From NCBI GenBank assembly GCA_015487555.1, contig WFPK01000046.1:1-41167 (forward strand): DNA of 41,167 nt, written 5' to 3'. Within the stretch, counting starts at the first letter, position 1; every line of letters begins with the position of its first letter. Made by a program: the position numbers and the translations under genes. Positions 3,327 through 41,104 of the stretch are shown here, in pieces. This DNA is from Phycisphaerales bacterium (GTDB taxonomy: Bacteria > Planctomycetota > Phycisphaerae > Phycisphaerales > UBA1924). The notes under the pieces were generated by a model. The model was not told the origin of the DNA. It made no database searches and worked only from the letters and a program-made list of their open reading frames with translations.

Positions 3327-4526
3327 TCACCCGACCCCCAAACGATCAGCAGGGCTCAGCCATTGGACCATCGCATCGACCCGATGCGCCCACAAGCACC
3401 GCAACTCGACCAATGCCCGCCCTCGCCGAGCCATCGCGACCGATCCTTGAACATCGCCAAGCTGCGCATCGACCGCTGCCCGGGCCGCCTGTGGATCTGC
3501 CCAATCAAAGAGCCTGGCCGAATCTCCGCCCGGGCTCGCTGCGCCGTTGAAATCCCGCCGAACCAAAAGCCGATCATCCGCAACCACACACGCCCCGCCC
3601 GCCATCGCCTGCATGATCCGCTCCGAATACGAATGCACAAACTGCGTAGGCCCCCACGCAAGCCCGACACGCCCGCGCGCAAACGCATCTGCGCACTGCG
3701 CATAACGCACCTCGCCCGCATACTCGATCGTCCCGGTGCAATGCGCCTTCCAGACATCCGATCCAAACACCCCAACGCGCACCCCCTGCATCGCCTGGAC
3801 CGTTTCAATCCGCCGATGCCGATTCACCATCGCAATCACCAATCCCCAAAGATACTTCTGCGCCTCCCAGCTCCCGGTAATCACCCCGCGCGACCCCATC
3901 ACCAGATCAACCGCTGCGACATACCCAAGGTGAGGCTCTTTGATCATCAGATGCGCCATCTCCCCCGCCATCGCCCGCACCGGCGCATCGAGCTGCCCAA
4001 GCCCGCGATCAATCTCCTCCTGCGATCGAACCGAACCCGTCACCACCACATCAAACTCTCGCCCGACAAACGCCTCCTCTGTCAAAGTATCCATGTCACA
4101 GAGCGATTCACGCGGAATCCCATGAGGCATCCATGAATGGACCAACCCCGCAAACCGCGTCCGAAGCAGGTGCACATCATCAAGACAAGGCAGCATCAGC
4201 CGGAACCGCTCAAGCCCGACCCGCTGGGTCCATTCATCAAGAAGCGAATCGGGCAGCGCAAAGGGATGATCGACATGCACCTGCACCGCTGAGAGATTCG
4301 ACCCGGGCACAAACAAGGCAGGCGGAAGCTGATCGAGCGATTGAGGCGTATTGAGAAACAAAAATACCCCCTCGGTCGGCGACTCATCCTCGGCAATATC
4401 AATCAACCGAGCCTTATACCCCCTGGCGATAAATCCCTGCGCAATCTCGCTGGCCATCGCACCCAGCAGGTCAAACTGCGACTGGTACGAACGCTGAATC
4501 CAGATCGTCTCATGTGTGCTTTGCAT
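3327..4526 (-). CDS. CgeB/YkvP-like glycosyltransferase-type protein
   Basis: The 399-residue protein begins with an alpha/beta region (SQFDLLGAMASEIAQGFIARGYKARLIDI). Its C-terminal half resembles glycosyltransferase family 1-like domains: VRVGVFGSDVWKAHC, then YAQCADAFARGRVGLAW, then SYSERIMQAMAGGACVVADD. That last stretch, with a glutamate and an AMAGG turn, is where the sugar nucleotide normally binds in GT-B enzymes. The overall arrangement fits the spore-protein CgeB/YkvP-type group often found in cell-surface glycan loci. Donor and acceptor cannot be told from sequence, and no partner glycan genes lie nearby. AGAGAGG sits just before the ATG. It is convergent with truB. Confidence 0.65.
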   Translation of the reverse strand: MQSTHETIWIQRSYQSQFDLLGAMASEIAQGFIARGYKARLIDIAEDESPTEGVFLFLNTPQSLDQLPPALFVPGSNLSAVQVHVDHPFALPDSLLDEWTQRVGLERFRLMLPCLDDVHLLRTRFAGLVHSWMPHGIPRESLCDMDTLTEEAFVGREFDVVVTGSVRSQEEIDRGLGQLDAPVRAMAGEMAHLMIKEPHLGYVAAVDLVMGSRGVITGSWEAQKYLWGLVIAMVNRHRRIETVQAMQGVRVGVFGSDVWKAHCTGTIEYAGEVRYAQCADAFARGRVGLAWGPTQFVHSYSERIMQAMAGGACVVADDRLLVRRDFNGAASPGGDSARLFDWADPQAARAAVDAQLGDVQGSVAMARRGRALVELRCLWAHRVDAMVQWLSPADRLGVG

Positions 4527-4602
4527 ACCTCTCTATCGGACAAAACAAGCACACAACAAGACCCATCGCCCCCAATCCAAAACCCTGATCCCAAAAATAA
4601 CC

Positions 4603-4629
4603 GTGCCGCCCGAAACACTCGGACGGCAC
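4603..4629 (-). terminator. hairpin followed by a T-rich run on the minus strand
   Basis: Read on the minus strand, GTGCCGTCCGA pairs with TCGGGCGGCAC (one mismatch) around a five-base loop, followed by GGTTATTTTT. It lies about 150 bases behind the AhpD-like gene and is the only terminator-like structure between that gene and the glycosyltransferase gene. Confidence 0.5.
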
Positions 4630-4758
4630 AGCGCAGGAAATGGGGGATCTGGCCAAATACGCTCAAGAGGACGGACGCCATCTCTGGAATCCGCCCCTGC
4701 GTTCGCCTATGAGGGGACGAGCAAACGCATTGTCTGGGTTTCTATCCGAAACCACCAT

Positions 4759-4774
4759 ATCGCCGATCGGCGAT
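4759..4774. repeat. perfect 16-bp palindrome just behind the AhpD-like gene
   Basis: ATCGCCGATCGGCGAT reads the same on both strands and ends seven bases before the stop codon of the minus-strand gene at 4781. It could be a loopless transcript-end structure, a protein site, or chance in a sequence rich in GATCG. Confidence 0.5.
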
Positions 4775-4780
4775 CATGCT

Positions 4781-5332
4781 CTACACCGCAACCGCTTCAT
4801 CAAGCTCCACATGCGGAAAATCATTCTCGGTCTCGAGGAAATGGTTGGCATAGTTGGTATACAGATTGAACATCGTAATCGCAAGCACCTCGAGAATATC
4901 CGATTCACTCAACCCGGCCGACTTGGCAGCCTCGAAGGCTTCGTCATTGGCATACCCGCGGGTTTCAACAATCGACCGGGCAAGGTTGATCGCTGCCTGT
5001 GTCTTGGGATCGGACGACTCACCTTTTCGGTTGAGTTCGCGTTCTTCATCTGAAAGCCCAACCATTTTGCCAATCGCGTTGTGGGCCGAAGCGCAGTATC
5101 CACACTTGGTAAACGACGCCATCGCGATCGCGATGGACTCACCGACCCGATCGCCCAACGAGCCGGCCTTGAGCGCTTCTTTTTGTTTGACATAACTATG
5201 GATCGCTGCAGGCGAGTGGGCCAAAGTGCCCAGCAAGTTCGGGACCCGTCCAACCGCAGACTTGATGTGCTCAAGCATTTCGCGTGAAGCCGGGTGTGCT
5301 TTTTCAATCGTTGTTGGTGCAATGCGAGGCAT
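4781..5332 (-). CDS. AhpD/carboxymuconolactone decarboxylase-family peroxidase-like protein
   Basis: The 183-residue protein starts MPRIAPTT, the usual beginning of this family, and carries FTKCGYCASAHNAIG with C77, C80 and H84. This CxxC...H signature is the redox-active site of AhpD-type alkylhydroperoxidases. VPNLLGTLAHSPAAI (30-44) is also typical. Members reduce peroxides or act on small carboxylated substrates; the CxxC favours a redox role. I chose ATG 5332 because GGAG lies six bases upstream; in-frame ATGs at 5344 and 5380 are less likely. It is divergent from a TetR regulator across 202 bases holding an operator-like palindrome, and thioredoxin is encoded just beyond, which suggests a small oxidative-stress cluster. 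Its exact reaction is not known. Confidence 0.8.
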   Translation of the reverse strand: MPRIAPTTIEKAHPASREMLEHIKSAVGRVPNLLGTLAHSPAAIHSYVKQKEALKAGSLGDRVGESIAIAMASFTKCGYCASAHNAIGKMVGLSDEERELNRKGESSDPKTQAAINLARSIVETRGYANDEAFEAAKSAGLSESDILEVLAITMFNLYTNYANHFLETENDFPHVELDEAVAV

Positions 5333-5414
5333 ATCAATCTCCATTCCTGTACCTAAAACCGACACTCCAGAGGCCCTCATCCGAAAGAACCTTCATCATT
5401 TTCCCGTAAACGAC

Positions 5415-36028: not shown

Positions 36029-37618
36029 TCAGTTGATCGGCGTCGCCACCTGCGCAATCACACCCCCAACCTTCACCCGCGCAAGCGAATATATCCGTAC
36101 AGGCGTGTCATAAATCTCACGCACAGCCCGAGGCTCGATCGAGATCAAATGCATCAGCGCATCCGTATCCACATCACGATCCGCACTCGGAGCCGACAAG
36201 TTAGGCTCGGCCCGGATCAAAAGACCAAGGTTATTCCTCGCCCAGACCTGCGCAGCCAACAACCGATTCATCGCATCACTCGTATCGGCATCGCACACAA
36301 CAAGATGAAGCTGGCCATCATCATCAATCGCAAGCTCAACACCAGGAGCCTTGGGACAACGAGCCTCAATCGGATACAACCCATCGATCAACGCGCACAA
36401 CCCATCACGAAGCGTCGGCGCATCATCCAAAGCACGCTGGGCATCAACCAACTCAGGCCCCGGCGCCTCAACACCATCAGCAGGAAACTCCACCCGAGCT
36501 GGCTCTGGTGAAACCACCCGATCAACACCCCCCGCTTCAGAAAACTCACCCGCACGCGCTCCTGCCCGCACCAATCCATCAAGAATATGCGATGCCGAAT
36601 GCGAAACCGAATCACGATACAGATTCGTCGTCCCCGTCGCATCAATGCGCCCAGACCCCACCACAATCTCAATCGGACGCTCAAGAAATGTCTCCGCAGC
36701 GTTGCCAAGCTTGGCACACGCATCGAGCGCCATCTCGCGCCCACCACCCATCACCGCAACCCGAAGCTTGGGCCCATCACCCGAAACATACCGCTGCCCG
36801 AGCATCGCATCGAGCGTCTTGATCAACCGATACGACGCCACAACTGCCGCCTCATCAGCACCGGTCAAAATCGTAATCTCTTCCACCTCGGCCCGTTCGA
36901 GCAGCTCAGGTTCGCTCGCTTCATCCACCCGCAAAATCACCCGATCAGCATCCTCCGAAACAGCGCCCAACGCCCCATCAAGATGCGCAAAGCTCCGCCT
37001 CGAAATCGAACCCTCCTCATCGCCCCCATCAATCAAATCCACCGAAGTCGATCCAGATGCCGCCCGCACCAACGCCACCATCTCACACAAAGCCTTAGCT
37101 TGATTGCACGCATACTGACGAGCCCACAGCGTCGCACGCACCGGCAAATGCCCGAGCACCACAACCTCCACCGTCGGACGAGGCATCGAAACCACCTCGA
37201 CCACCTCCACCGCTTCAAAATCTTCACCATCATCACCGCCGCCGAGAATCTCCGCAAGCAAATCCGAAGCATGCCCATCGGTAATCTCAAGCCGCTCGAG
37301 CGCATCGGCCCCGGAATGCCCAATCGCAGCATCATCCTCGTGCCGGGTCAGATGCAACACAGGTGTGTGCGTCGCATGAGTAGGCTCAGACTCGGAACCC
37401 ATCGGCCCATCCATCGGCCCATCCGCCAACCCATCCATCGACCCACCCGCAGCCCCCCCCATCGGCTCAGGGGCCAGCTCGCCCTCGCCAAGAAACAAAT
37501 CCGCCAGCGCGTCATACTCTTCATGGTCGATCGACGCCAGCTGAAGATGCCCCGCCGGAGCACCCGAAACCTGCTCACGACCCAACCCGCCATCATCACC
37601 CGGCTTCATATCGTCCAT
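36029..37618 (-). CDS. MinD/ParA-like protein without a visible P-loop
   Basis: The 529-residue protein has a low-complexity acidic N-terminus (about 1-145, with a DG-PMDG repeat). From 150 it has VEVVVLGHLPVRATLWARQYACNQAKALC where a P-loop ATPase would have KGGxGKT; no Walker A lysine is present. The following pieces resemble the rest of a MinD/FlhG fold: DADRVILRVDEASEPELLE, then EITILTGADEAAVVASYRLIKTLD, then LRVAVMGGGREMALDACAKLGNAAETFL. The C-terminal 130 residues are unassigned. The start follows GCGGAG, and a promoter is visible at 37684-37713. It lies downstream of the ParA-CBM gene on the same strand, so it may be a pseudo-ATPase partner; this is inference. Confidence 0.55.
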   Translation of the reverse strand: MDDMKPGDDGGLGREQVSGAPAGHLQLASIDHEEYDALADLFLGEGELAPEPMGGAAGGSMDGLADGPMDGPMGSESEPTHATHTPVLHLTRHEDDAAIGHSGADALERLEITDGHASDLLAEILGGGDDGEDFEAVEVVEVVSMPRPTVEVVVLGHLPVRATLWARQYACNQAKALCEMVALVRAASGSTSVDLIDGGDEEGSISRRSFAHLDGALGAVSEDADRVILRVDEASEPELLERAEVEEITILTGADEAAVVASYRLIKTLDAMLGQRYVSGDGPKLRVAVMGGGREMALDACAKLGNAAETFLERPIEIVVGSGRIDATGTTNLYRDSVSHSASHILDGLVRAGARAGEFSEAGGVDRVVSPEPARVEFPADGVEAPGPELVDAQRALDDAPTLRDGLCALIDGLYPIEARCPKAPGVELAIDDDGQLHLVVCDADTSDAMNRLLAAQVWARNNLGLLIRAEPNLSAPSADRDVDTDALMHLISIEPRAVREIYDTPVRIYSLARVKVGGVIAQVATPIN

Positions 37619-37778: not shown

Positions 37779-39272
37779 TCAGTCAATCCGCACAATATTA
37801 TTGCGCCCGCCAAGCCCATTCTCGATCCGATCCGGATTATACGGATCAAGGCACCACTGCCCATCAATCACCAGCTTATACGCATACACACCCTTGCCAA
37901 GCTCCAGATGCTTCTCGAAAACGCCCAATGCCTCGTTGACACCCATCGCCGTCTGCTCAGGAGCCCAGCCATTGAAATCACCCGCAATCTCGACCCGACG
38001 ACCAATCGACCCAGGCTGAACAAACAACACCCCCTTCGAGCTCCGCCGAACCCCAAAGAGATGCTTCACCTTGGTCATATCCGCCAGAAGCGATTTGCCC
38101 GCACCGACCACACGATCATCCACAAGCTCAATCGCCACCGGACGATGAGCCATCATCGAACGCTTCATCACCACAGGCTTGGGCTCGATCGCCGCCGATG
38201 CCACCTGTGCATCTCGCTGCGAAGCCTCCTCCAGCCCCACATGCCCCTGCTTCTCCTGCTGCATCGTCCGCGCCCGCATCGCCAGCTCCTGCGCCCGAGA
38301 CAAAGGCGAACCCAGATTCGAACGCGCCACCTCAATCGCTGCCGAGGCCAAAGTCGCCGCCGGGCTCGGACTCGCCAAGAGACCATCGGTTTCCTCACCA
38401 GGCTCAGGACGATCAATATTGGCATGCTCGACAAGCCATTCGCACACCGAGCGATAATCCTCCGCCCCCATCGAATCGGGCGCATACTCATCAATCGGCT
38501 GACCAAACGACGCTGCCTCCTTGAGCGCATGGTCATACCGCACCACCACCGGAATCATCCCCGCCCCAAACCGATCACGCAAATCATCCAACAAATCCCG
38601 CGCCAAAGGCTGATTGGGATCGTGCATCGTCGCCAACAACCGAGGATGAATCCGCATCCCGATCCGACGAGCAATCGAACGGGCCGTCTGCACCTGCTTG
38701 GCTGCCCCGCGAAGCGAGAAGAAACTCGTCTCCACAGGAATAATCACCTCACGCCCCGCTGCAATCGCATTATACGACAACAACCCAATCGAAGGCGGGC
38801 AGTCAATCACACACACATCATACCGCTTGGTCTCGGCACCAGGCTCATACATCCCCCCCGCTTCCCCCGCCTGATCCGCCTGATCCGATCCCGCAGGACC
38901 ATCCACCCGCGCAAGCCGATGAAGCACCGAACGCAGCCGAAGCGTCTTGTCCTTCTGATCCGCCAACCCACCCTGCGCCGCCTCGATCCCCGCGAGCTTC
39001 ATCCGCGAAGGAAGCAGATCAAGATTTCGCCCCACATGCCAGATCAACCGATCCCGGTTGAGCGACTGATCCGTCGGCATCCGCAGCGCATCACTCACAT
39101 CAAGATCCAATCGCTCTTCAGGAATCCCAAGACCCGCTGCGCAGTGCGACTGGGGATCAAGATCAACCAAAAGCGTCCGGCACCCCGACTTGGCAAAGGC
39201 CGACGCCAGATTGATCGCCGAGGTGGTCTTCCCACATCCGCCCTTCTGATTGATGACTGTAAATACGCGCAC
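37779..39272 (-). CDS. ParA-type ATPase fused to an AMPK-type glycogen-binding (CBM48-like) domain
   Basis: The 497-residue protein opens with a complete ParA ATPase: deviant Walker A INQKGGCGKTTSAINLA (GGCGKTT at 11-17 plus K10), the second motif LVDLDPQSHCAAGLG, and switch VIDCPPSIGLLSYNA (157-171). PVETSFFSLRGAAKQ and the remaining ParA core reach about residue 285. An Ala/Gln-rich linker (about 290-400) leads to FVQPGSIGRRVEIAGDFNGWAPE, then GVYAYKLVIDGQWCLDPYNPD and GGRNNIVRID at the C-terminus. This matches the AMPK beta/isoamylase N-terminal domain, including sugar-contact positions W436, K466, W473 and N491/N492. Start: GTG 39272 with GGAG ten bases upstream. It follows rsfS-aroB on the same strand. 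Confidence 0.88.
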   Translation of the reverse strand: MRVFTVINQKGGCGKTTSAINLASAFAKSGCRTLLVDLDPQSHCAAGLGIPEERLDLDVSDALRMPTDQSLNRDRLIWHVGRNLDLLPSRMKLAGIEAAQGGLADQKDKTLRLRSVLHRLARVDGPAGSDQADQAGEAGGMYEPGAETKRYDVCVIDCPPSIGLLSYNAIAAGREVIIPVETSFFSLRGAAKQVQTARSIARRIGMRIHPRLLATMHDPNQPLARDLLDDLRDRFGAGMIPVVVRYDHALKEAASFGQPIDEYAPDSMGAEDYRSVCEWLVEHANIDRPEPGEETDGLLASPSPAATLASAAIEVARSNLGSPLSRAQELAMRARTMQQEKQGHVGLEEASQRDAQVASAAIEPKPVVMKRSMMAHRPVAIELVDDRVVGAGKSLLADMTKVKHLFGVRRSSKGVLFVQPGSIGRRVEIAGDFNGWAPEQTAMGVNEALGVFEKHLELGKGVYAYKLVIDGQWCLDPYNPDRIENGLGGRNNIVRID

Positions 39273-39416: not shown

Positions 39417-40607
39417 TCACCGCCGAATCGAATCAATCCCCGCCACGATCGCCCCTTCATCAGCCCCTTCGACAATCGCGCATTTCCCCCAACCAACCGG
39501 CAGAATCACACGAAGCGAACCACCCGCCATCTTCTTATCACGCATCATCCGATCCAAAATCTCGCAACCAGGAGGCAACCCATCGACCCGCACAGGCAAC
39601 CCGATCGCTTCGAGCATCGAGACGAGCTCGTCCCCAATCGAACGATCACACATCCCCAGCTCCACAGCTGCACAGCACGCTGCAACCATACCCAGCCCCA
39701 CCGCCTCGCCATGAAGCAAAGGCGCCAAACCAGGTTCATCCACCACCGGACTCACCCCCTCGATCGTCTCGATCGCATGTCCAAAGGTGTGCCCAAAGTT
39801 GAGCAGCATCCGCCCGCCCGCCTTGGCATCAGTCGATTCATGCTCATCACCAACCACCACAGACGCCTTGAGCGCCACATTCCGCCCGACGAGCTCTTCG
39901 ATCGTCGAATCATCAAACGCCCGAATCCCATCGAGCTCCTCGATCATCCAGTCCATCAGCCCAGCATGGGCATCATCCCCAAGACCCGCGCCAATCATCC
40001 CATGCTTGACACACTCAGCAAGCCCCGCCCGACGATGCCGAGGATCGAGCGATGCGAGCACATCCATATCCGCCACCACCAACCGAGGCTGATGAAACGC
40101 CCCGACCAGGTTCTTGAGCAGCGTCGATCCCCCCGCATCATCGGGCACCACCAGGTTCATCCCCGTCTTGCCCCCCACCGACGCATCAACCATCGACAAA
40201 AGCGTCGTGGGACACTGGATCACCGCCACCCCGCGCTGATAGCTCGCTGCGACGAATCCCGCCAAATCCCCGACCACCCCGCCTCCGAGTGCAATCACCG
40301 GATCAACCCGCGTATGCCCCGTCGAAGCGATCTCGACCATCAACCGATGATAAGTCTCGATGGATTTGATCTCTTCGCTCGGCGTCACACACGCGACACA
40401 AGCCACAAAGCCCTGCGATGCAAGATCAGCACTCAACTGATCCACAAACCGCTCGGGCACACCCGTATCCACCACCACGAACACCCGCGATGCCCTGGCC
40501 CCTGCCATCGAACGGACAGCCGACGCAACGCTGCCAAGTGCGCCCCCCCCGATGCGAACCTCATACGCACGCCCAGGCAGATTCACCTCAACCCTACGCA
40601 CGCTCAC
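39417..40607 (-). CDS. aroB: 3-dehydroquinate synthase AroB
   Basis: AroB makes 3-dehydroquinate from DAHP, the second step of the shikimate pathway. The 396-residue product shows PVIALGGGVVGDLAGFVAASYQRGV and the substrate motif PTTLLSMVDASVGGKTGMN. Zinc ligands are in AGLAECVKHGMI (glutamate), NFGHTFGHAIE (histidine) and LLHGEAVGLGM (histidine). EEIKSIETYHRLM is also typical. The start is GTG 40607, which overlaps the rsfS stop codon as GTGA, so translation is probably coupled. Length is slightly above the usual 360. Other aromatic-pathway genes are not in the window. Confidence 0.96.
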   Translation of the reverse strand: MSVRRVEVNLPGRAYEVRIGGGALGSVASAVRSMAGARASRVFVVVDTGVPERFVDQLSADLASQGFVACVACVTPSEEIKSIETYHRLMVEIASTGHTRVDPVIALGGGVVGDLAGFVAASYQRGVAVIQCPTTLLSMVDASVGGKTGMNLVVPDDAGGSTLLKNLVGAFHQPRLVVADMDVLASLDPRHRRAGLAECVKHGMIGAGLGDDAHAGLMDWMIEELDGIRAFDDSTIEELVGRNVALKASVVVGDEHESTDAKAGGRMLLNFGHTFGHAIETIEGVSPVVDEPGLAPLLHGEAVGLGMVAACCAAVELGMCDRSIGDELVSMLEAIGLPVRVDGLPPGCEILDRMMRDKKMAGGSLRVILPVGWGKCAIVEGADEGAIVAGIDSIRR

Positions 40608-41104
40608 ACCGCATCCTCATCGCTGACCTGACGATCAACCAAGCCCGGCTTAGCCTGTGACCGTGCCGACGCTGGCACCTCAACCCGTGGACATTCAAAC
40701 CACAGCCCCTCAAGGTCATAATGCGCCCGAGCATTGGGCTCAAAAAGATGCACCACCACATCAACAAAATCCGCCAAAAGCCAAATCGCATCACCATCTT
40801 CAGTAATATGAAACGCACTGGTCCCACATTCCTCAGCCACCTCCTCAATGCCACCCAGTGCACCACGCATCTGCCTGGCCGAGGTCCCCGATCCAATCAC
40901 GATGAACCCCGTCACAGGCGACCGCCCTCCAACATCAAGCACCACCACATCGGTGCATTTGTCATCCCTCAGCGACTGGGCCGCCTTGATCGCAAATGCA
41001 CGGGCATCCTCCACATTGAGAATCTTCGCCCCTTCCGACATCGTCGCCCCAGCCATCGGCTGATTGCTCGATCCTCGCCCATCGTTTTCATCGTGTGTAT
41101 TCAT
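40604..41104 (-). CDS. rsfS: ribosomal silencing factor RsfS (YbeB/Iojap family)
   Basis: RsfS binds ribosomal protein uL14 and blocks joining of the subunits when nutrients are short. The 166-residue product has the core AFAIKAAQSLRDDKCTDVVVLDVGGRSPVTGFIVIGSGTS, then EECGTSAFHITEDGDAIWLLADFVDVVVHLFEPNARAHYDLEGLW, with the last stretch being the family signature for uL14 contact. It has about 25 extra residues at the N-terminus and a longer C-terminal tail than E. coli RsfS (105). ATG 41104 has TAGGAT six bases upstream; ATG 41041 (MSEGAKILNV) is an alternative. The stop overlaps the aroB start. Confidence 0.93.
   Translation of the reverse strand: MNTHDENDGRGSSNQPMAGATMSEGAKILNVEDARAFAIKAAQSLRDDKCTDVVVLDVGGRSPVTGFIVIGSGTSARQMRGALGGIEEVAEECGTSAFHITEDGDAIWLLADFVDVVVHLFEPNARAHYDLEGLWFECPRVEVPASARSQAKPGLVDRQVSDEDAV

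Follow-up and report, generated by a model that had tools for sequence, protein, structure and literature searches.

What would a ParA ATPase do with a glycogen-binding domain? ParA/MinD ATPases are known to position DNA, chemoreceptors, carboxysomes and further protein bodies within cells, with the cargo usually engaged by a distinct partner protein; in AMPK, kinase activity is tied to glycogen. Within the window (the whole stretch of 41,167 nucleotides analyzed here, from a Phycisphaerales bacterium), one gene encodes both a ParA ATPase and a carbohydrate-binding module (CBM) of the AMPK type. We tentatively favor a combined reading of this gene, to which we give a little less than an even chance: the ATPase may bind an intracellular alpha-glucan, as cargo or as signal, within a spatial system controlled by a partner protein.

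The ParA-CBM protein

The gene and the parts of its product are as follows.

37779..39272, minus strand: ParA-CBM gene, 497 aa, GTG start at 39272, stop codon at 37779-37781
38418..39272, minus strand: ParA ATPase core, aa 1-285, with the deviant Walker A motif KGGCGKTT, DLDPQ and the DCPPS Walker B region; AAA_31
38076..38417, minus strand: Ala/Gln-rich linker, aa 286-399, of low model confidence, with a helix of the RAQELAMRAR type
37782..38075, minus strand: AMPK-type CBM, aa 400-497, with FNGW, YKL, DGQW and GGRNN; AMPK1_CBM match

Comparison with relatives backs the GTG start: at the same place, several carry ATG. An earlier reading of this DNA, made from its sequence only, described a full ParA core followed by a C-terminal AMPK-type domain, and both assignments held in our searches. 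Pfam AAA_31 matched the protein at 2.4e-35, and the core residues K9-G-G-C-G-K-T-T16, D36, D38-P39-Q40, D156-C157 and P159 were invariant in 26 aligned members. Pfam AMPK1_CBM (PF16561) matched residues 424-496 at 2.0e-9 (37.9 bits vs a cut-off of 26.8), and it matched 26 of the 26 full-length alignment members at E≤0.001, the best at 1.1e-15. The sequence-only reading had named CBM_48 as a second model to search with; the CBM_48 match (0.003) lay under its Pfam cut-off. A sequence search of the PDB aligned the N-terminal part with ParA/Soj and residues 421-496 with the CBM of AMPK beta (best 2.2e-6).

AlphaFold, given a 26-row alignment, modeled residues 401-496 as a domain of nine short strands with block-mean pLDDT values of 91-97. 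A fold match to the CBM itself did not appear among the best 50 of 1432 Foldseek matches, which all concerned the ParA part. These 50 included 8ray (2.1e-22; target TM-score 0.89) and Soj 2bek (7.4e-21). Most ten-residue blocks of the linker had pLDDT values below 50, with helices predicted at residues 307-317 and 325-345; the RAQELAMRAR-type helix pattern, as written, occurs in 39 of 89 fusions. By its deviant Walker A motif with the signature Lys, its Walker A' and Walker B motifs and its ParA fold, ParA-CBM fits the A/D ATPase family.

Distribution of the fusion

The ParA-CBM query matched all 61 related genomes, a count that takes in other ParAs too. The fusion itself was read in 56 of the 61, including G027, in which the CBM is degenerate, and G005, in which the gene is cut by a contig end. 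A ParA without the CBM occurs in four genomes (G036, G042, G048 and G054), of which G042 was scored from its frame length and missing CBM match; in G016, neither the ParA-CBM gene nor the partner gene described below was found. The genome counts for the fusion and for the partner are based on hand reading of match tables by contig and coordinate. In a phylum sample of 294 genomes, 22 belong to the window's class by kinship, and we read the fusion in 20 of these (18 confirmed at fetched loci, G037 and G041 from search tables). Recurrence of the fusion in other Phycisphaerae had been anticipated from the sequence, and both samples agree with that expectation.

Of the 272 phylum genomes outside the class, loci from ten were inspected, nine without a ParA motif and one with the fusion. 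The latter (G118:C274:6145-6423, locus L132) is from a planctomycete outside the window's class and encodes a ParA-CBM fusion in a frame of 409 aa. A scan of named contigs yielded 49 fusions among the best 80 loci, and the titles of these 49 read Phycisphaerae, Phycisphaerales, Phycisphaeraceae, Sedimentisphaerales, Planctomycetales, Planctomycetes or Planctomycetota.

A frameshift or assembly error joining two genes, which the sequence-only reading had named as one outcome that would undo it, is ruled out because the same open fusion is present in dozens of genomes. We also rejected a plasmid origin, as none of the 3572 plasmid records with a match spans at least 80% of ParA-CBM in one place, and a defense or phage origin, as the protein gave a weak P-loop match in PADLOC and the generic ParA family alone in PHROGs. 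In G048:C37 (L219:3057-4127), a related ParA ends directly after the RAAELVRRAKEL helix and has neither CBM nor partner; the ancestral ParA may thus already have had this helix.

Sugar-site residues and selection

In the window protein, two tryptophans, a lysine and an asparagine had been recognized earlier as the residues that contact glycogen in AMPK beta. This observation extends to the fusions at large: we counted residues in 91 distinct proteins from fetched loci, with no FNxW filter applied, at the positions that we take to be W100, W133, K126 and N150 of AMPK. Trp occupies the W100-type position in 90 of the 91 and the W133-type position likewise in 90, with the degenerate CBM of G027 as the single exception at both, and the N150-type position is Asn in 83. 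The K126-type position is basic in all 91 (Lys in 19, Arg in 72); it is Lys in the window protein and is kept as Lys in the aligned members of the window's genus. Both Trp residues are likewise invariant in the 26-row alignment, which was also chosen without the FNxW filter. The domain thus resembles the glycogen-binding domain of AMPK beta (PF16561) in family and in its Trp/Trp/basic/Asn contact residues, but it differs in the Lys-to-Arg replacement found in most fusions and in being joined to a ParA ATPase, outside a kinase complex.

Over six pairs of sequences, omega was 0.02-0.12 for the CBM, 0.04-0.09 for the ParA core and 0.08-0.37 for the linker; these values are rough, as dS exceeded 1 in several pairs, and the pair of the window's own protein and L004 was dropped because its dS was saturated. 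Judged by these estimates, the CBM is under purifying selection and is evolving about as slowly as the ATPase, with the linker evolving faster than both. Together, the kept site residues and the low CBM omega argue for a working binding site, putatively for sugar.

CBM-like E-set folds can bind proteins, and the domain might accordingly be a protein-interaction module that has kept the AMPK CBM fold but attaches to the ParA core or to the partner and not to sugar. That CBM presence and glycogen genes do not co-occur (see below) agrees with such a role. However, a protein interface would not need the two Trp residues, the basic residue and the Asn that the fusions keep, and three genomes whose ParA has no CBM still retain the partner. 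We consider a purely protein-binding role unlikely.

A pseudo-ATPase gene downstream of ParA-CBM

The account of the locus given by the sequence-only reading lacks a conserved, FlhG-like downstream partner that has no Walker A motif.

36029..37618, minus strand: partner gene P0003, 529 aa, FlhG/MinD-like, directly downstream of ParA-CBM
37490..37507, minus strand: LADLFL, conserved N-terminal helix motif of the partner; among 40 aligned partners, 39 match it when a permissive pattern is used
37124..37153, minus strand: degenerate P-loop site in the partner, reading GHLPVRATLW where a Walker A would be expected

The partner had no match in Pfam, NCBIfam, PADLOC or PHROGs, and when it was compared with the CBM the two showed no homology. 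A partner profile identified it at E values of 3.1e-26 or better in 58 of the 61 related genomes (all but G016, G041 and G048), always adjoining the ParA gene. In three of these genomes (G036, G042 and G054) it is kept beside a ParA without the CBM, so the CBM would be dispensable for the ParA-partner pair. In the wider set, 48 of the 49 loci have at least 900 bases downstream, and the partner adjoins ParA in 23 of these and does not in 25; among loci titled Sedimentisphaerales, it is present in L078 and L093 and absent in L045 and L050.

The partner profile matched FlhG (4rz2) at 3.8e-7 and FleN at 1.6e-4, and FlhG was also the first fold match of the predicted partner structure (2.1e-5), with TM-scores below 0.5. 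None of the 40 aligned partners has a Walker A motif at the P-loop position; an automatic Walker A flag in L165 reflects a chance GKT further along. Without this motif, the partner is not expected to bind ATP as its relatives with a Walker A would, and its sequence and predicted structure indicate that it is an FlhG-like pseudo-ATPase. It resembles FlhG/FleN (4rz2, 5j1j) in profile and predicted fold, but it differs from them in lacking Walker A, in having an extra N-terminal motif and C-terminal domain, and in its position beside aroB/rsfS rather than flagellar genes. To our knowledge, the pairing of a catalytically dead MinD-type protein with a live ParA is unusual.

In the 40 partners, the residues before the LADLFL motif (at most 30) contain on average 2.0 Lys and Arg vs 4.9 Asp and Glu. 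Known partners of A/D ATPases have a positively charged, disordered N-terminus, according to PMC10241942; since the region before LADLFL is acidic, the protein encoded here departs from them in this respect.

A scan for transcription signals identified three promoter-like sites (1.6 in shuffled sequences, sd 1.4) and three terminator-like sites (5.5 in shuffled sequences). None of the terminator-like sites lies between the ParA-CBM and partner genes, and the ParA-CBM gene has, at its 3' end, two of the promoter-like sites, both on the minus strand. Given these two sites, the scan neither proves co-transcription of ParA-CBM with its partner nor excludes an operon.

Upstream neighbors and other ParA-family proteins

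Two genes lie upstream of ParA-CBM on the same strand.

39417..40607, minus strand: aroB, 3-dehydroquinate synthase, the upstream neighbor; DHQ_synthase match at 2e-38
40604..41104, minus strand: rsfS, ribosome silencing factor, overlapping aroB; RsfS match at 1.4e-22

An aroB-like family (c2, named by eye) is present at 9 of 51 loci, and in L062 it is not upstream. The neighbors tested with Pfam (aroB, rsfS and the partner) include no parB, no polysaccharide gene and no regulatory target gene.

One reading suggested by profile matches is a regulator like BcsQ, a ParA/MinD-type ATPase that is likewise tied to polysaccharide: the ParA would dock at a membrane glycosyltransferase complex for polysaccharide synthesis or export, and the CBM would sense the product. 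Pfam CBP_BcsQ matched ParA-CBM at 1.1e-12, over its looser cut-off. The NCBIfam BcsQ model (TIGR03371), however, scored 86 bits, far below its cut-off of 157.85, and on this score we rejected identity with BcsQ. In addition, ParA-CBM differs from BcsQ in having no polysaccharide gene among its tested neighbors, and an AMPK-type site suits alpha-glucans, not beta-glucans. We regard a BcsQ-like role as very unlikely.

The ATPase core bears a closer resemblance to chromosomal and plasmid ParA (Soj; 8ray, 1wcv/2bek), which it matches over its whole length, in its deviant Walker A motif and in fold; ParA/Soj proteins are its closest solved structures among the best 50 of the 1432 Foldseek matches. 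ParA-CBM could in principle be the chromosomal Soj of this bacterium, using an unlinked ParB, in which case the CBM would be a mere embellishment of this lineage. ParB was identified over the cut-off in 55 of the 61 genomes, and within flanks of at most about 1.5 kb no ParA motif was found near ParB in any of 30 loci, as this reading would have it. Based on these sequences, the ParABS genes appear to be unlinked in the order of the window's bacterium. The ParB proteins at these loci (G000:C42:5386-5910 in the window's own genome and 29 others; L173-L202) have an N-terminus of the LG[RK]GL type.

Against a chromosomal role, a second ParA that carries RRNIKLAE, the Soj motif, is a better candidate for Soj. 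We identified it on C30 of the window's own genome and, among 12 regions inspected in relatives, in 9; the crude ORF picker missed it in the other three (L211, L212 and L215), where protein search places one. All 10 aligned second ParAs carry RRNIKLAE. In the fusions, by contrast, the Soj motif is altered: among 89 distinct fusions, selected with FNxW, the Arg before Asn is replaced in 79 by a residue that is neither Arg nor Lys and is Arg or Lys in 10, the next DNA-contact position is Lys or Arg in 63, and a Lys or Arg stands beside that position in all 89. We liken these Soj-motif positions, the placing of which is partly presumed, to R221 and R224 of Caulobacter ParA (PMC7229837). ParA-CBM further differs from ParA/Soj in its lack of a ParB among the tested neighbors, its C-terminal CBM and its own conserved neighbor, the pseudo-FlhG gene. 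We therefore rejected chromosomal Soj as the main reading and hold it to be highly improbable; since a separate Soj candidate and ParB exist, ParA-CBM would be an extra, spare ParA.

The Soj-like ParA of the window's own genome (G000:C30:14397-15185, L228) and those in L207-L210, L214 and L216 adjoin a gene for a VanZ-like protein, not parB; a MurJ-like protein is encoded near the Soj-like ParA in L208, L209 and the own genome (the VanZ and MurJ names were assigned by eye). Contig C91 of the own genome encodes an FlhG-like protein with KGGVGKTT, named by eye and from a weak profile match.

Glycogen and alpha-glucan genes

The sequence-only reading had suggested that the protein positions or partitions a storage polysaccharide granule. 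This suggestion is supported in part, with the record of classical glycogen genes against it: GT5 glycogen synthase (GlgA) over the cut-off is present in 1 of the 61 related genomes, phosphorylase in 34 and GlgB over the cut-off in 7, and each of the three is present in 0 of the 21 members of the window's genus. A GlgB candidate on C102 of the own genome was rejected because it is below the cut-off and has a signal-peptide-like beginning. All four genomes with a CBM-less ParA have phosphorylase; with the fusion-bearing genus lacking this enzyme, the CBM does not track classical glycogen metabolism. In the accessible text of a class genome review (PMC11266412), glycogen is a predicted degradation substrate, and the word "storage" is absent from that text.

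Other alpha-glucan enzymes are encoded in the genus. GH57 proteins were identified in 57 of the 61 genomes and in 19 of the 21 genus members (one weakly), and the window's own genome had no match. Four GH57 proteins from the genus, whose beginnings we read, start without an obvious signal. A glycosyltransferase (GT) of about 500 aa has a starch-synthase domain (PF08323) over the cut-off in all three proteins tested, the own genome included. On this starch-synthase-like GT, GT4 models outscore the starch-synthase model, and TIGR02149 (a glycogen synthase subfamily) is its best NCBIfam match in two of the three, far below the cut-off. In the own genome the gene lies at G000:C50:22201-23728 (L273:4202-5728) and its product starts MRVLMLGWEFPPFMSGGLGT; similar proteins are encoded in G013, G040 and G057. 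We consider the C50 GT a candidate unconventional alpha-glucan synthase, and with a GH57 protein it makes an unconventional cytoplasmic alpha-glucan possible in the window's genus.

GH13 proteins occur in all 21 genus members. Of seven GH13 frames whose beginnings we read by eye, six look secreted or lipoprotein-like, and L234 is probably so. In the own genome, C95 carries a starch-use-like locus (G000:C95:1-20000, L261) of secreted and lipoprotein GH13 enzymes; it also encodes a further surface protein that looks CBM-like (about 4109-5401), together with a ROK-like kinase and components of an ABC transporter (names partly by eye).

The C95 locus is one of the grounds for a sensor reading, under which maltooligosaccharides released by secreted amylases and imported would, by binding to the CBM, act as a switch for the ParA/pseudo-FlhG pair, with no granule as cargo; like MinD/FlhG proteins, the pair would then govern motility, growth or division. 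The place of the partner on the FlhG/FleN side of the family and the lack of phosphorylase and of GT5 GlgA over the cut-off in the genus also agree with a sensor. Yet the tested neighbors include no regulatory target gene. We judge this sensor unlikely, though less so than the other rival readings.

A possible two-gene spatial system

Under the combined reading, in which an alpha-glucan is bound as cargo or as signal, the locus would be a dedicated two-gene spatial or regulatory system. By homology, ParA-CBM would act as an additional, non-chromosomal ParA that alternates between an ADP-bound or apo monomer and an ATP-bound dimer that binds the nucleoid. Its CBM, judged by the conserved site residues, would bind an intracellular alpha-1,4-glucan or maltooligosaccharide, and the ATPase itself would thus contact the sugar with no adaptor. 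The adjacent FlhG-like pseudo-ATPase may regulate or adapt ParA-CBM, probably, at a guess, by using its N-terminal LADLFL helix to touch the ParA core. The likeliest outcome would be that a glucan-bearing body is spread along the nucleoid or that localization of the ATPase is made glucan-dependent; to prefer distribution of a glucan body over sugar sensing is a guess. Because our searches of the genus turned up no classical glycogen genes, we would place the source of the glucan in an unconventional pathway comprising the starch-synthase-like GT and the GH57 protein.

Several results count for the combined reading: the conservation of the fusion, the site residues, the low omega of the CBM, the adjacent FlhG-like partner, the separate Soj, and the GT with GH57. 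Counting against it are the four CBM-less genomes with phosphorylase and the mismatch between CBM and glycogen genes, the own genome without GH57 and with a GT that favors GT4 models, the loss of the Soj DNA-contact Arg in most fusions, the acidic N-terminus of the partner, the loci (25 of 48) where the partner is not adjacent, and the two promoter-like sites at the end of the ParA-CBM gene. A strict form, which we rate as unlikely, would have the ParA grip an alpha-glucan cargo through its fused CBM with no adaptor, under the governance of the pseudo-ATPase, so that storage glucan is shared between daughter cells. If true, this strict form would be the first bacterial polysaccharide-particle segregation system, and one present across most of a class; the combined reading, if true, would extend ParA positioning to polysaccharide or tie spatial regulation directly to carbohydrate state.

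Among known systems, the pair is comparable to McdA/McdB of carboxysomes and to other cargo-positioning A/D ATPases, as presented in PMC10241942, in that an extra ParA has a dedicated neighbor and a positioning role is likely. It differs from these systems in that the ATPase bears the putative cargo-binding domain itself and in that its neighbor, an FlhG-like pseudo-ATPase, begins with an acidic region. Positioning by ParA is already known, as are CBMs of the AMPK type; what appears new is the fusion and its pairing with a pseudo-FlhG. Among the papers listed by a full-text search outside subscription journals, none describes, by its title and the start of its abstract, a ParA fused to an AMPK-type CBM or a ParA paired with a pseudo-FlhG. 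The shared fusion and pseudo-ATPase neighbor suggest an undescribed way to place or sense sugar polymers in cells. The question is directly testable, as it involves two genes, a defined ligand site with two Trp residues and a class with cultured members, some of which are named in PMC11266412.

AMPK-type CBMs also occur alone in the window's genus. We identified solo domains of this type in short frames of 118-134 aa at G007:C10:1116043-1116288 and on contigs G018:C67 and G014:C9.
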